A DNA stretch of 64,000 nucleotides, from the NCBI RefSeq assembly GCF_004322705.1, contig NZ_SIZZ01000002.1, positions 124,001 to 188,000 on the forward strand. The letters run 5' to 3'. This document shows, in pieces, positions 18,420-23,211 of this stretch. The stretch comes from Dyella terrae. Lineage in GTDB: Bacteria > Pseudomonadota > Gammaproteobacteria > Xanthomonadales > Rhodanobacteraceae. Position 1 is the first letter of the stretch; each line of letters begins with the position of its first letter. The notes below the pieces were generated by a model. It had not been told where the DNA came from and searched no databases. It worked only from the letters and a program-made list of their open reading frames with translations. Both the position numbers and the translations under genes were made by a program.

Positions 18420-19916
18420 ATGAGCCTCGCGGTAACGTTGAGCCGCGCGCAGGAAGGTGTGAGCGCGCCGCAGGTCATGGTCGAAGTCCATCTATCCGGT
18501 GGACTGCCCGGCACCAACATCGTCGGCCTGCCTGAAGCCGCCGTGCGCGAAGCGCGCGACCGCGTGCGCGTGGCTATCCAGAACACTGCTTTCGAATACC
18601 CCAACCGCCGCGTCACCGTGAACCTGGCGCCCGCCGAGCTGCCCAAGGATGGCGGCCGTTTTGACCTGGCCATCGCCCTGGGCATCCTCGCGGCCGGGAA
18701 CCAGGTTCCGCGCGAGAAGCTCGACGACTGCGAATTTCTCGGTGAGCTCGCCTTGTCAGGCGCGTTGCGTGGCGTCTCCGGCGTGCTGCCTGCGCTGCTG
18801 CGAGCCCGTGCGCGCGGGCGCAAGGTGGTGGTGCCTCGCGCCAATGCCGCCGAAGCTGCCCTGATCCCGGACGCCGACGTTCGCGTCGCCGACACCCTGA
18901 GCGATGTCTGTGGGTGGCTGTGCGGCGCCCGGGATCTGGCCGTCCCGCTCGGTGTCGAAGCGATCGAAGAGCGCTCCGGCCCGGACCTGATCGATGTCCG
19001 CGGCCAGCGCCAGGCGCGCCGCGCACTGGAGATCGCCGCGGCGGGTGGACATCACCTGCTGCTGATGGGGCCGCCGGGCACGGGCAAGACCATGCTGGCC
19101 GAGCGCTTGCCCGGCATCCTGCCACCCATGTCGGAATCGGAGGCGCTGGAAACCTGCGCCATCCTCTCGGTGGCCGGACAGGAAGTGGATCCGGCGCAAT
19201 GGCGTCGGCGGCCGTTCCGGTCGCCGCATCACACAGCATCGGCTGCAGCGCTCGTCGGCGGCGGTTCGCAGCCCCGTCCGGGCGAAATCTCGCTTGCGCA
19301 CAACGGCGTGCTGTTCCTTGATGAACTCCCCGAATTCACGCGACACGTACTCGACGTGCTGCGCGAGCCACTCGAATCCGGTTGCATCGTCATTTCACGC
19401 GCGGCGCGCCAGTCGACGTTTCCTGCGCAATTCCAGCTCGTAGCCGCGATGAATCCGTGTCCCTGCGGATATGCGGGTGATCCGCGCCAGCGTTGCCGCT
19501 GCACGCCCGACCAGGTGCAACGCTATCGTTCGCGGATCTCCGGACCGCTGCTCGACCGCATCGACATGTGCGTCGATGTCCCGCGTCAGCCGCTATCCGA
19601 TCTGAGTGCGCGACGAAGCGCGCACGATGAAGATTCCGCCACCGTGCGGGCGCGCGTGATCAGGGCGCGCCACCAGGCACTCATGCGTGCCGGTCGTTCC
19701 AACGCTGAAATCAGTACGCGCGAACTGGAACGCGATTGCGCCCTGGGGCCCACCGAACGCACATGGTTCGACGGCGCGCTCGAACGACTCGGCCTGTCGG
19801 CGCGTGCCTATCACCGTACCTTGCGCGTGGCACGCACCATCGCCGACCTCGATGGCGGCGCCGGTACGCTGGATCGCGCGCATCTGGCCGAGGCGCTGCA
19901 ATACCGCCGCCTGTGA
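18420..19916 (+). CDS. comM: ComM/YifB AAA+ Mg-chelatase-like protein
   Basis: The 498-residue protein has the N-terminal YifB domain (VEVHLSGGLPGTNIVGLPE), a Walker A motif GPPGTGKTM, the Walker B segment GVLFLDELPEF and a cysteine-rich insert (NPCPCGYAGDPRQRCRC) characteristic of ComM. ComM is a hexameric helicase that promotes branch migration during natural transformation in related bacteria. Length matches the family (about 500). No other competence gene is in the window. Confidence 0.95.
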   Translation: MSLAVTLSRAQEGVSAPQVMVEVHLSGGLPGTNIVGLPEAAVREARDRVRVAIQNTAFEYPNRRVTVNLAPAELPKDGGRFDLAIALGILAAGNQVPREKLDDCEFLGELALSGALRGVSGVLPALLRARARGRKVVVPRANAAEAALIPDADVRVADTLSDVCGWLCGARDLAVPLGVEAIEERSGPDLIDVRGQRQARRALEIAAAGGHHLLLMGPPGTGKTMLAERLPGILPPMSESEALETCAILSVAGQEVDPAQWRRRPFRSPHHTASAAALVGGGSQPRPGEISLAHNGVLFLDELPEFTRHVLDVLREPLESGCIVISRAARQSTFPAQFQLVAAMNPCPCGYAGDPRQRCRCTPDQVQRYRSRISGPLLDRIDMCVDVPRQPLSDLSARRSAHDEDSATVRARVIRARHQALMRAGRSNAEISTRELERDCALGPTERTWFDGALERLGLSARAYHRTLRVARTIADLDGGAGTLDRAHLAEALQYRRL

Positions 19917-19929
19917 GGCCGTCGTTCCG

Positions 19930-20952
19930 TCAGTACCCGAGCACCAGCACCTGGAACGTGCCGGCCTCGGTCGTGGCAGGCTTGCCGGCCGCCGCCACGC
20001 TTCGCTCACCCACCGACAGATAGAGCCGGTGCGCTGATGCATCGAGCGCTTGCGTTCGTGCACCGACCTGCGTCGGCACCGTCGCCACGACGTGATACCG
20101 GTTGACGCCGTCCTGATGGATCACGGTGAGATTGCCGCTGTGTCCATTGGAGGTGTAGATGGTTCCCGTGTCATCGTCGAACGACACGGCATCCGGGCCT
20201 TGTCCGATCGGCAGCTTCGCTACGACGCGACCTTTCGTGGCGTCGCTGACCACCATCGTCTCGTTGTCGCAAACCGAGAACAGCCGGTGATGTGCCTTGT
20301 CCATCGCCAGGCCGCTGGGTGACTCGCAAGGCTTGAGTGACCAGGTGCGCGTGACTTTGCGTTGCAAGGCGTCGATCTGCACCATCTCGGCGCGGTCTTC
20401 GATGTTGACGAAGATATGCCCCGCGCCGTCCGCCTGGGCAAATTCCGGCTTGCCCGGTAGATCGATCGTGGCCACCACGCTGCGCTTTTCGGGATCGATG
20501 ACGCTGGCGCTGTGCGCCTTGCCGTTGAAGGTGAAGACATCGTGTGACATGGGGTCGAAAAGGATCGCATCGGGATTGGCACCCGTGCCCGGGATCGTGG
20601 CGAGCGTCTTCAGGCTGGCCAGGTCGAAGACGGTGACGGCGTTGGCGGCACCGTTGCTGGTGAACCCCTGGCCCAGCTCTGGCGCGACGGCGATGCCATG
20701 CACGCCCTGGGTGTCCGGGATGTCGGCCACGACGTGGTCGTCGGAGGTATCGACCACGATCACCCTGTCGCCATGGCTGACAAAAAGGTGGTGGTGCGCC
20801 GGATCGACAGCCAGGTAATCCCATCCACCCGTGCCTCCCAGGGGAATCCGCTTGATGACCTGGACGGGCGGGGCGTCGGCCGCCAGCAAGCCTGCGGGGC
20901 AGGGCAGCAGGGCCAGGGCGACGGCAAGTGCTCGCAGCGGGATGACGTACAT
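19930..20952 (-). CDS. Exported YVTN-type beta-propeller protein
   Basis: The ATG at 20952, with GAGGAC upstream, gives 340 residues beginning with a signal peptide (VALALLPCPAGLLAA). The mature protein contains repeated blades resembling the YncE/YVTN family: WDYLAVDPAHHHLFVSHGD, DTQGVHGIAVAPEL, GANPDAILFDP and GPDAVSFDDDTGTIYTSNG. Such proteins form seven-bladed propellers in the periplasm and often bind ligands or DNA; no enzymatic motif is visible. The gene converges on comM and its start faces a putative small RNA. Confidence 0.8.
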   Translation of the reverse strand: MYVIPLRALAVALALLPCPAGLLAADAPPVQVIKRIPLGGTGGWDYLAVDPAHHHLFVSHGDRVIVVDTSDDHVVADIPDTQGVHGIAVAPELGQGFTSNGAANAVTVFDLASLKTLATIPGTGANPDAILFDPMSHDVFTFNGKAHSASVIDPEKRSVVATIDLPGKPEFAQADGAGHIFVNIEDRAEMVQIDALQRKVTRTWSLKPCESPSGLAMDKAHHRLFSVCDNETMVVSDATKGRVVAKLPIGQGPDAVSFDDDTGTIYTSNGHSGNLTVIHQDGVNRYHVVATVPTQVGARTQALDASAHRLYLSVGERSVAAAGKPATTEAGTFQVLVLGY

Positions 20953-21110
20953 GGCGGAGTCCTCAGGGTGATCATGCAGGAGTAGCCGAGGCGCGCTTAT
21001 AAAGAGCTTAGAGGACGTTGTCCGAACCGGAGGCAACAACAAACGTGGGTCCTAAAGGCATGATTGTGTGGAATAAATAAGTCAAATCCGAATTTATGTA
21101 CTGACGGGTA

Positions 21111-21138
21111 TTGACTTGTCTCCCGAACAATCTAATAT
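21111..21138 (+). promoter_or_regulatory. Strong sigma-70 promoter of the candidate small RNA
   Basis: TTGACT (21111-21116) and TAATAT (21133-21138) are 16 bases apart; each matches the consensus at five or four positions. This is one of the best promoter matches in the window, in a locally AT-rich stretch. Transcription should begin at about 21145. Confidence 0.65.
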
Positions 21139-21144
21139 CTGCAC

Positions 21145-21302
21145 CGACGAGTTCTCTTATGGACTACGTCCCCCCGCCGCCCCGGTATCGGCCCCTCCTC
21201 CCTCCCCCCGTCCGATACCGGGGTTCGGCATCTCAAAAAGCTCCTGCCGTTTGCCGTTTGATTCGCTCTCTCCGGGTCCCCCGAGAGGGCGTTTTTGTTT
21301 TG
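21145..21302 (+). ncRNA. Candidate small regulatory RNA with a C-rich anti-Shine-Dalgarno loop
   Basis: A transcript of about 155 bases is bounded by a good promoter and a strong terminator with no credible coding sequence between. A perfect 12-bp stem, CCCCGGTATCGG (21180-21191) with CCGATACCGGGG (21212-21223), presents a 20-base loop made almost only of C and U, with CCUCC three times. That loop is complementary to Shine-Dalgarno sequences. C-rich-loop RNAs such as sX13 of Xanthomonas act in trans this way (established for sX13); homology here is not tested. Very short reading frames over this region lack good codon use and were rejected. Confidence 0.65.
21264..21302 (+). terminator. Rho-independent terminator of the candidate small RNA
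   Basis: CGCTCTCTC (21264-21272) pairs with GAGAGGGCG (21283-21291), one G-U pair included, followed by TTTTTGTTTT. It is a textbook intrinsic terminator, 118 bases before the antiporter start. Confidence 0.85.
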
Positions 21303-21420
21303 GCGCAGGCCATCGGCGGATGATCCGGTTGGCTATACGAATCCTGCGCGTTCCTTAAGGGATGCTCTGGCGGCGCGCCGTTCGAAGCGCGCCATCGCCA
21401 GCCTGGGGGAGTGTGAGCGC

Positions 21421-23211
21421 ATGATGGAACTGAGCCTGGTTCTCGCCGGCATCCTGGCGATCGGCTTCTTCTCGCAGTGGCTCGCGTGGCGCGTGCGGCT
21501 TCCGGCCATTCTCTTCCTGTTGCTCGCGGGCATCCTGCTCGGGCCAGTCGCGGGATGGCTGCATCCCGAGCATCTTCTGGGCGACATGCTGTTTCCCGTC
21601 GCGTCACTCTCCGTTGCGATCATCCTGTTTGAAGGCAGCCTCACCCTGAAATTCCAGGAGCTGCCCGGCATCGGACCGGCGGTGCGCGGCCTGGTGACTT
21701 ACGGCGCCGTGCTCTCGGTGATCCTGCTCGCGGGCGCCGCGCATCTGCTGGCCGGCCTGCGCTGGGAAATCGCCTGGTTGTTTGGCGCGCTGACCTGCGT
21801 CACCGGGCCTACCGTGATTGCTCCCATGCTGCGCACCGTGCGTCCCAACGCACGCATCGCCAATACGCTGCGCTGGGAAGGCATCGTCATCGATCCGCTG
21901 GGCGCGCTGTTCGGCGTGCTGATCTTCGAGGCCATCGTGTCGCGTCGCGAAGGGCACAGCCTCTGGATCTTCCTGACCACCATCGGCGCAGGGGCGCTGA
22001 TGGGCTATGTCGCGGCGCTCATACTTGGCGCACTTCTGCGCCGCCACCTGATTCCCGATTACCTGCAGAATTTCGGCACGCTTGTCGCCGTGTTACTGGC
22101 CTTTACCTTGTCGAATGAACTGGCCCACGAGTCCGGCCTGCTCGCCGTCACGGTGATGGGCATCGCGCTGGGGAACATGCGCGGCGTGCATATCGAGGAC
22201 ATCCTGGACTTCAAGGAGAGCCTCACCACCTTGCTGGTGTCGATTCTCTTCATTCTCTTCGCCGCGCGACTCACCTTGCCCTTGCCCGATGGCATGGGCT
22301 GGGCGGGTGTCGCCATCTTCCTGGTGGCTCAGTTCATCGTTCGTCCCGTCACGGTGCTTCTGTCGACGATCGGCAGCGTCCTGACATGGCGCGAGCGCGC
22401 ACTCATCGCGTGGGTGGCGCCGCGCGGCATCGTGGCCGCCGCCGTGTCCGCCTTGTTTGCCCTGAAGCTCGATGCCCTGGGCATGAACGATGCTGGGGCG
22501 CTCGTGCCCCTGGTCTTCATCCTGATCATCGGCACGGTGGTGCTGCAAAGCGCCACCGCGAGGCCCCTGGCGCGTTGGCTCAAGGTGGCCGAGCCCGATC
22601 CCACGGGCGTGCTCATCTTCGGTGCGGACCGCGTGTCGCGCGCCGTCGCGCAATCACTGGTCGACGCCGGATTTCGCGTGGTGATCGCCGATGACGACTG
22701 GGATGGCATCAGCGCAGCACGCATGGAAGGTTTCTCGACCTTCTACGGCTATCCCGCCTCGAATTACGCGGAGCGGCACCTGGACCTCACGGGCGTCGGT
22801 CGCCTGCTGGCCATGTCGACCAATCGCGAGCGCAATTCACTGGTGTCCGTGCACTATCGCCAGGAGTTTGGCCGCGAGCGCGTTTACCGGCTGCGCATCC
22901 GGCCGCCAACCGCTGACAAGGACCGCGACGCGTTTGCCACCAACTTGCTGGCACCGCCGCTGTTCGCCGAGGACATGACCCATGCGCGCTTCGGCGCGCT
23001 GCTCGATCGCGGCTGGCGCATCAAGTCGACCAAACTCACGGCGACGTTCGACTGGCCGAACTTCATCGAGCAGTACGGCTCGAATACGGTGTTGATGTTC
23101 GGCGTGGAGGAACGCGGTGCGCTGCGCGTCGCGTCGGCCAAGCGAGAGCTTGAGCCGCGACCGGGGTGGCACATCATCGCACTGGTGCCACCGGGCATCG
23201 GGGTGACCTAG
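21421..23211 (+). CDS. CPA1-family cation:proton antiporter with a C-terminal Rossmann domain
   Basis: The start at 21421 (ATGATG) has GGGGGAG nine bases upstream and yields 596 residues. Residues 1 to about 400 contain 11-12 transmembrane segments of a sodium/proton exchanger, including the unwound-helix region TCVTGPTVIAPML. Residues from about 405 resemble TrkA-N: GVLIFGADRVSRAVAQSLVDAGFRVVIADDD. Coupling of a CPA1 exchanger to a nucleotide-binding domain suggests regulation by NAD(H) or another nucleotide. The gene follows the small-RNA terminator, so it needs its own promoter. Confidence 0.88.
   Translation: MMELSLVLAGILAIGFFSQWLAWRVRLPAILFLLLAGILLGPVAGWLHPEHLLGDMLFPVASLSVAIILFEGSLTLKFQELPGIGPAVRGLVTYGAVLSVILLAGAAHLLAGLRWEIAWLFGALTCVTGPTVIAPMLRTVRPNARIANTLRWEGIVIDPLGALFGVLIFEAIVSRREGHSLWIFLTTIGAGALMGYVAALILGALLRRHLIPDYLQNFGTLVAVLLAFTLSNELAHESGLLAVTVMGIALGNMRGVHIEDILDFKESLTTLLVSILFILFAARLTLPLPDGMGWAGVAIFLVAQFIVRPVTVLLSTIGSVLTWRERALIAWVAPRGIVAAAVSALFALKLDALGMNDAGALVPLVFILIIGTVVLQSATARPLARWLKVAEPDPTGVLIFGADRVSRAVAQSLVDAGFRVVIADDDWDGISAARMEGFSTFYGYPASNYAERHLDLTGVGRLLAMSTNRERNSLVSVHYRQEFGRERVYRLRIRPPTADKDRDAFATNLLAPPLFAEDMTHARFGALLDRGWRIKSTKLTATFDWPNFIEQYGSNTVLMFGVEERGALRVASAKRELEPRPGWHIIALVPPGIGVT

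Follow-up and report, generated by a model that had tools for sequence, protein, structure and literature searches.

In the 64-kb window (the whole stretch of DNA that was analysed), a promoter and two hairpins were identified that very probably belong to a real, undescribed family of small regulatory RNAs from Dyella and related soil bacteria (Rhodanobacteraceae), as their conservation in sequence suggests. Our preferred reading, to which we give a probability of roughly 60%, is that of an independently transcribed antisense RNA that acts in trans and uses the loop of its C-rich 3' hairpin to mask ribosome-binding sites rich in G. A conserved promoter behind comM would drive an RNA of ~92 nt, which in the window could be extended by read-through to as much as ~155 nt. 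This RNA would have one hairpin at its 5' end and another at its 3' end, the very stable stem of the latter holding open a pyrimidine-rich loop of 14-23 nt, which would cover the ribosome-binding sites of mRNAs in the manner of RepG and sX13. On anatomy and analogy, such an anti-Shine-Dalgarno mechanism appears to be the best explanation. The family is encoded at a nearly fixed position, covaries strongly and offers a clear candidate for the site of pairing; the literature search described below gave no small-RNA study on Rhodanobacteraceae.

Architecture of the locus and the predicted RNA

The RNA locus is arranged in the order minus-strand beta-propeller gene, promoter, 5' hairpin, C-rich hairpin, second hairpin and Na+/H+ exchanger gene. 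The conserved upstream neighbour is a gene that we take to be comM (yifB). The features are listed below.

18420-19916, plus strand: comM (yifB, presumed name), conserved upstream neighbour; Pfam Mg_chelatase, ChlI and Mg_chelatase_C
19930-21042, minus strand: beta-propeller gene that separates comM from the RNA; DUF5074 and lactonase match weakly
21097-21110, plus strand: conserved upstream element TGTACTGACGGGTA abutting the -35 hexamer; TGWACY lies 4-9 nt before TTGAC in 58/66 members
21111-21138, plus strand: sigma-70-type promoter TTGACT-16-TAATAT; 9/12 consensus bases
21144-21235, plus strand: conserved RNA core, ~92 nt; start placed from the promoter and end from conservation in alignments
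21146-21170, plus strand: 5' hairpin GACGAGUUC/GGACU(A)CGUC, predicted by folding; helix 69.8% paired in the 50-sequence alignment
21176-21229, plus strand: C-rich hairpin with stem, outer pairs and loop, from folding and covariation
21192-21211, plus strand: C/U loop CCCCTCCTCCCTCCCCCCGT, 20 nt, with one G and CCUCC three times; presumed mRNA-binding site
21264-21301, plus strand: second hairpin and U-tract, predicted downstream intrinsic terminator, from folding and a bulge-tolerant scan
21421-23211, plus strand: Na+/H+ exchanger (antiporter) gene; Pfam Na_H_Exchanger

The near-consensus promoter described in an earlier note on this DNA is present, and it is the only one of the TTGACT-16-TAATAT type between 20600 and 21800, against a mean of 0.2 in shuffled sequences. 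Among the 66 full-length members of the family (the 74 genomes matched by a first covariance model minus 8 weak ones, in 2 of which the contig ends at the hairpin), TTGAC was found within 50 nt 5' of the model start in all 66. The best-scoring -10-like hexamer follows at a spacer of 14 (5 members), 16 (37), 17 (20) or 18 nt (4). The abutting element TGTACTGACGGGTA is possibly an activator or UP-type site; together with the -35 hexamer, it occurs once perfectly and twice with a single mismatch in its own genome. The promoter is followed in the family by a mostly conserved CTGYACC and the 5' hairpin, which is predicted in the 66 members when they are folded singly, in some of them in weak or irregular form.

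The perfect 12-bp stem that the earlier note had seen beneath its 20-base C/U loop is formed by CCCCGGTATCGG (21180-21191) and CCGATACCGGGG (21212-21223), and is extended by outer pairs between GCCG (21176-21179) and CGGC (21226-21229). For the predicted transcript of 159 nt, the folding energy is -63.2 kcal/mol (z -5.5), a stability that none of 200 shuffles reached, and the 92-nt core alone reaches a z of -5.3. The C-rich hairpin is near-unique in 364 kb of its own genome: a scan of both strands of this DNA for stems of at least 8 pairs with loops of 14-24 nt and at least 90% pyrimidine returned only one other, an 8-bp hairpin. No Rfam family was detected at threshold within the 64-kb window.

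The downstream terminator, previously called textbook, consists of a hairpin at 21264-21291 followed by TTTTTGTTTT. It folds and is recovered by the bulge-tolerant scan, but it contains a one-base bulge and a simple scan misses it. The transcript of about 155 bases proposed with it finds support in this second terminator, whereas conservation already ends at ~21235, where similarity fades soon after the C-rich hairpin. Directly after the C-rich stem, GGC and then pyrimidine-rich sequence was observed in 61/66 members. At least 5 T in the 8 nt after the stem occur in 27/66 members versus 8/66 shuffled tails (one shuffle each); L161 has TTTTTT there, and in the window itself the C-rich hairpin has no such tail. 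The bulge-tolerant scan, which keeps the best site per member, placed a further terminator-like site within ~190 nt in 19/66 members versus 8/66 shuffled sequences. At an offset of 62-75 such a site is shared by the window and 15/18 members of genus g11, and no site was placed in any of the other 47 members. The fading similarity, the T-rich tails and the second terminator of g11 together indicate a conserved unit of ~92 nt, whose 3' end may in many relatives be formed by the C-rich hairpin itself, while ~155 nt is plausible for the window's RNA.

Conservation, covariation and gene neighbourhood

A DNA search of 61 relatives gave 22 matches, and the hairpin is present in 21 of them; in the excluded one (genome G026), the similarity is a short stretch near the antiporter only. 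The search returned no match in any of the 24 genomes of other families. The first covariance model, built from 20 sequences, matched 74 of 197 sampled family genomes and, at the order level, 40 of 299 genomes, all 40 belonging to the same family (Rhodanobacteraceae). A second model, covering both helices and built from 50 sequences, matched 76/197 sampled family genomes, a few of them weakly. At the class level it matched 3/369. These are the genome of the window, a weakly matching relative and G733, whose match lacks the C/U loop and was judged false. The family, order and class searches were run with stricter filters, at which some weak matches are lost. Matching family genomes carry one copy, apart from two weak copies in G126 with the second model; the first model gave two matches each in G062 and G126. 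With the second model, a match was found in 18 of 26 genera, which leaves a sizeable share of the family without the RNA.

In addition, a pattern scan of named genomes produced 57 stretches, 31 of which score at least 53 bits and were taken as members. These carry the names Dyella, Frateuria, Fulvimonas, Oleiagrimonas, Luteibacter, Rhodanobacter glycinis or Rhodanobacteraceae, and NCBI taxonomy places all of their genera within Rhodanobacteraceae. The 26 stretches that were not counted come from actinobacteria, Acidimicrobiia, other records, Tahibacter (32.1 bits) and a Lysobacteraceae record (26.9 bits).

Several other hairpins were observed. A weaker, related-looking hairpin occurs in Tahibacter soli and some other relatives, and genus g15 (L193, L194, L196, L249) carries a variant C-rich hairpin on a different stem, present in L196 in two copies ~0.9 kb apart. 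In six records of Acidimicrobiia/Acidimicrobiales, another type of hairpin is conserved (CCGGTGTCGGCAGCTCCCGCAAGCCGCCGACACCGG and variants of it), and agctggagcctaggagggga comes after it in nearly identical form; a record named 'marine group bacterium Sva0996' also carries a hairpin of this type with agctggagcctaggagggga (the records with it are L106, L109, L112, L114, L123, L089 and L085). Five Pseudonocardia genomes (L076, L084, L101, L118, L124) share an identical 42-base inverted repeat, CCGGTATCGGCGAGGGGGCTCCCCAGTCCCCGCCGATACCGG.

For covariation, 50 distinct sequences chosen from the 66 full-length members were aligned with MAFFT. In this alignment, 99.8% of the cells of the 12-bp stem are paired and double changes occur at 9 of its 12 pairs; 2 of the 12 never vary and several hardly vary. 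The 5' helix, whose length changes the alignment treats poorly, is paired in 69.8% of cells, with double changes at 5/8 pairs. Over the whole structure, 87 double-change cells were counted; shuffles averaged 27, and slid versions gave 9-36. Four of the five covariation measures lie above all 500 shuffles, and the fifth, on further pair types, is no better than the shuffles (29 versus 29.6). The family search that the earlier note had proposed thus returned a conserved stem and loop with compensatory changes, and judged by its sequence record the hairpin is not a chance feature.

The 66 members have 26 distinct stems and 40 distinct loops of 14-23 nt. Every loop contains CCUCC, CUCCC and CCCC, and the loop core (first 3 and last 4 nt left out) is purine-free in 66/66. 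The threefold CCUCC pointed out earlier is correct for the window's loop and rare in the family: three copies are present in 2/66 loops, two in 53/66 and one in 11/66. A G-quadruplex or i-motif reading of the loop was rejected, with four C-runs in 2/66 loops only. The C/U make-up of the loop is kept while its sequence drifts, a pattern that suits pairing with G-rich RNA.

The gene neighbourhood is similarly well conserved on the upstream side. A comM gene on the same strand, at most 200 nt 5' of the RNA, was found in 26/28 testable named members; in L096 it lies 1803 nt away and in L099 none was detected, and L081, L103 and L129 were left out of the test, although L129 does show a comM tail. 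No match to the beta-propeller gene was obtained in the 31 named member loci. On the 3' side, the exchanger follows on the same strand in 24/29 testable named members (L080 and L125, too short, were left out), and in the other 5/29 it is absent and a convergent isocitrate lyase gene is found instead. Furthermore, three relatives without the RNA (L142, L143, L144) show comM and then directly the exchanger, an empty-site arrangement. Since comM adjacency holds with or without the antiporter, the RNA is a gene of its own. It is not an obligatory exchanger leader, because the exchanger is absent in 5/29 and the RNA is absent in three exchanger-bearing relatives, and it is not simply the 3' end of comM, because it has its own promoter. 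The earlier proposal of an independent small-RNA gene with a C-rich loop is borne out by the conservation in the family, the compensatory changes and TTGAC in 66/66 members. The RNA-less relatives, in which comM adjoins the antiporter, would serve as natural controls. Between the RNA and the exchanger gene, a TGGACG...CTCCGATAG block was seen by eye to recur in L007, L013, L020 and others; it may be the exchanger gene's own promoter.

Candidate pairing sites and rival explanations

Predicted pairing of the loop was scored against 269 predicted starts, taken as the most upstream ATG of long frames. It is best ~10 nt before the start codon, with a mean of -4.8 kcal/mol, compared with -1.9 to -3.3 kcal/mol outside the -14 to -6 windows; at the peak 31 starts reach -10 kcal/mol, versus 2-18 in the outside windows. 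Reversed or shuffled C/U loops equalled or slightly exceeded this result, and the 16S tail came close to it; no clear peak was observed at the ribosome-binding site with stricter cut-offs (-13 and -16 kcal/mol). Because of these controls and the simple start calls, the profile supports an anti-Shine-Dalgarno role only in general. The complementarity to ribosome-binding sites suggested in the earlier note shows in the mean profile, which peaks at -10, and shows equally for shuffled C/U loops.

Among all 269 starts, the best pairing was obtained for an amino-acid permease gene (Pfam AA_permease_2, AA_permease) with the ribosome-binding site GGAGGGGGG. Of 18 orthologue loci, 12 were scored. In all 10 scored genomes with the RNA (one of them, G006, a weak member), the site is G-rich and pairs with the genome's own loop at a predicted -12.6 to -21.2 kcal/mol. 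The other 2 genomes, which have no copy of the RNA, likewise have a G-rich site (-14.6 and -16.9 kcal/mol). The permease gene can be regarded as a lead among candidate targets. The antiporter was rejected as a conserved target, as its G-rich ribosome-binding site, GGGGGAG in the window, is not kept in relatives.

Other explanations of the locus were weighed against the antisense reading. An RNA that titrates an RNA-binding protein through its C-rich loop or 5' hairpin, with no mRNA pairing, is unlikely. In its favour, some stem pairs vary less than base pairing by itself would require (2/12 pairs invariant), which could mark a protein site, and a 5' hairpin is predicted in the singly folded members. 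However, the drift of loop sequence at constant C/U make-up suits pairing with G-rich RNA, and because the loop core is purine-free it offers no GGA loop of the CsrA/RsmA type. We consider it distinctly improbable that the hairpin is a terminator behind comM with an incidental loop and no regulatory RNA, although its position within 200 nt of comM in 26/28 members, its strong GC stem, the excess of T-rich tails (27/66 versus 8/66) and the TTTTTT of L161 are what such a terminator would show. TTGAC lies 5' of the hairpin in 66/66, followed by mostly conserved CTGYACC and the 5' hairpin, and in the window a whole opposite-strand gene separates comM from the hairpin. Terminator hairpins usually have small loops, whereas this one is large (14-23 nt) and constrained to C/U.

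If the RNA served the Na+/H+ exchanger gene behind it as a leader or attenuator, this would account for the exchanger lying next on the same strand in 24/29 testable named members, but this reading was rejected on synteny and appears very unlikely: a convergent isocitrate lyase gene is next in the 5/29 without an exchanger, the three RNA-less relatives keep the exchanger, and in the window a terminator-like hairpin stands between the two. A small protein gene is exceedingly improbable. The frames considered for it begin at 21111 or 21116, or with an ATG at 21159, and there are open frames of 70 and 80 aa; however, an ATG in the 5' hairpin region is found in 52/66 members, its phase relative to the main hairpin is spread 29/13/10 over the three frames, and the changes that occur preserve base pairs. 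This candidate was rejected, in agreement with the earlier statement that the transcript holds no credible gene.

Relation to sX13 and other C-rich-loop RNAs

According to PMC3771888, sX13 is always located downstream of polA and is a highly structured RNA with three C-rich loops that act on G-rich motifs near translation starts. The Xanthomonas sX13 (RF02232) and the comM-side RNA have in common the C-rich-loop theme, a high degree of structure and an origin in the same order. In contrast to the three loops of sX13 at polA, the comM-side RNA has one C-rich loop and a 5' hairpin, and lies near comM.

A separate sX13-like RNA was identified in the same genome at C2:398778-398893 (L141:1271-1386, minus strand), scoring 43.1 bits, below the gathering score of 50 bits for RF02232. 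It shows three C-rich loops in the model alignment and lies just downstream of polA (C2:399008-400132), a position that was established for the window's genome. The sX13 model matches 42/61 relatives at E<=0.001, 14 of the 42 over the cut-off. All 37 searched Rhodanobacteraceae genomes match at this level, 11/37 over the cut-off, and 1/14 control genomes also matches, below the cut-off. The sX13-like matches extend beyond the Xanthomonadaceae named in PMC3771888, published in 2013.

The covariance search with the sX13 model that the earlier note had suggested returned no match to the comM-side RNA at 20950-21450, even up to E 10. The ar14 model (RF02344) gave 23.9 bits on the window (E 0.019; gathering 58.8) and the ar7 model 12.6 bits (E 4.3). 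A search of 20 further member loci with the sX13, ar14 and ar7 models brought up no match at E<=0.5. These sub-threshold scores, the R2 covariance model reaching at most 19.9 bits over 11 sX13 loci, and the shared C-rich-loop theme are what speaks for an sX13 orthologue or a member of alpha-r14, which we nevertheless hold to be highly improbable. The comM-side RNA is not sX13, because the genome has a separate sX13-like RNA at polA; sX13 orthology was rejected on this and on the missing model matches in the window and the 20 member loci, and the single loop in place of three also speaks against the homologue option raised earlier. The C-rich terminal hairpin may share a remote origin with that of sX13.

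If the antisense reading is correct, two such RNAs would coexist. A more tentative extension, which we regard as doubtful, is that the comM-side RNA acts as a second global anti-Shine-Dalgarno RNA beside the sX13-like RNA, with its C-rich hairpin serving as a leaky terminator that yields ~92- and ~155-nt forms, and with both RNAs acting jointly on genes with G-rich ribosome-binding sites, such as those for amino-acid permeases. If true, this would amount to a two-RNA layer of translational control in one cell. The reason for keeping two C-rich anti-Shine-Dalgarno RNAs in one cell becomes testable, because sampled family genomes also carry an sX13-like match.

In a literature search covering titles and the beginnings of abstracts, with few subscription papers, no report was found of an RNA at comM or of small RNAs of Rhodanobacter, Dyella or Luteibacter. 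Similar RNAs have been described elsewhere. As outlined in PMC10746234, alpha-r14/NfeR1 of rhizobia (RF02344) has three hairpins, each with a CCUCCUCCC anti-Shine-Dalgarno motif. The window's RNA has this motif in common with it, and both have a conserved block upstream of the promoter; alpha-r14, however, is Alphaproteobacterial and has three motif hairpins, whereas the window's RNA has one. The 9-base motif CCUCCUCCC occurs in 2/66 members. In Staphylococcus aureus, C-rich loops of RNAs with UCCC loops, such as RNAIII, bind ribosome-binding sites (PMC3771888); RNAIII and the comM-side RNA both have C-rich loops, but they are unrelated RNAs of unrelated organisms, likened by description only. 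The closest published mechanism is that of RepG of Helicobacter pylori (PMC8295292), whose C/U-rich terminator loop pairs with a G-rich sequence in an mRNA 5' UTR; its second stem-loop alone suffices, and its main target is a phase-variable G-repeat. This organism is likewise unrelated, and the two RNAs are likened by description. As in these C-rich-loop antisense RNAs, the comM-side RNA presents a predicted single-stranded C-rich loop on a conserved stem, and by this analogy it appears to represent a new family within a functional kind that is already known.
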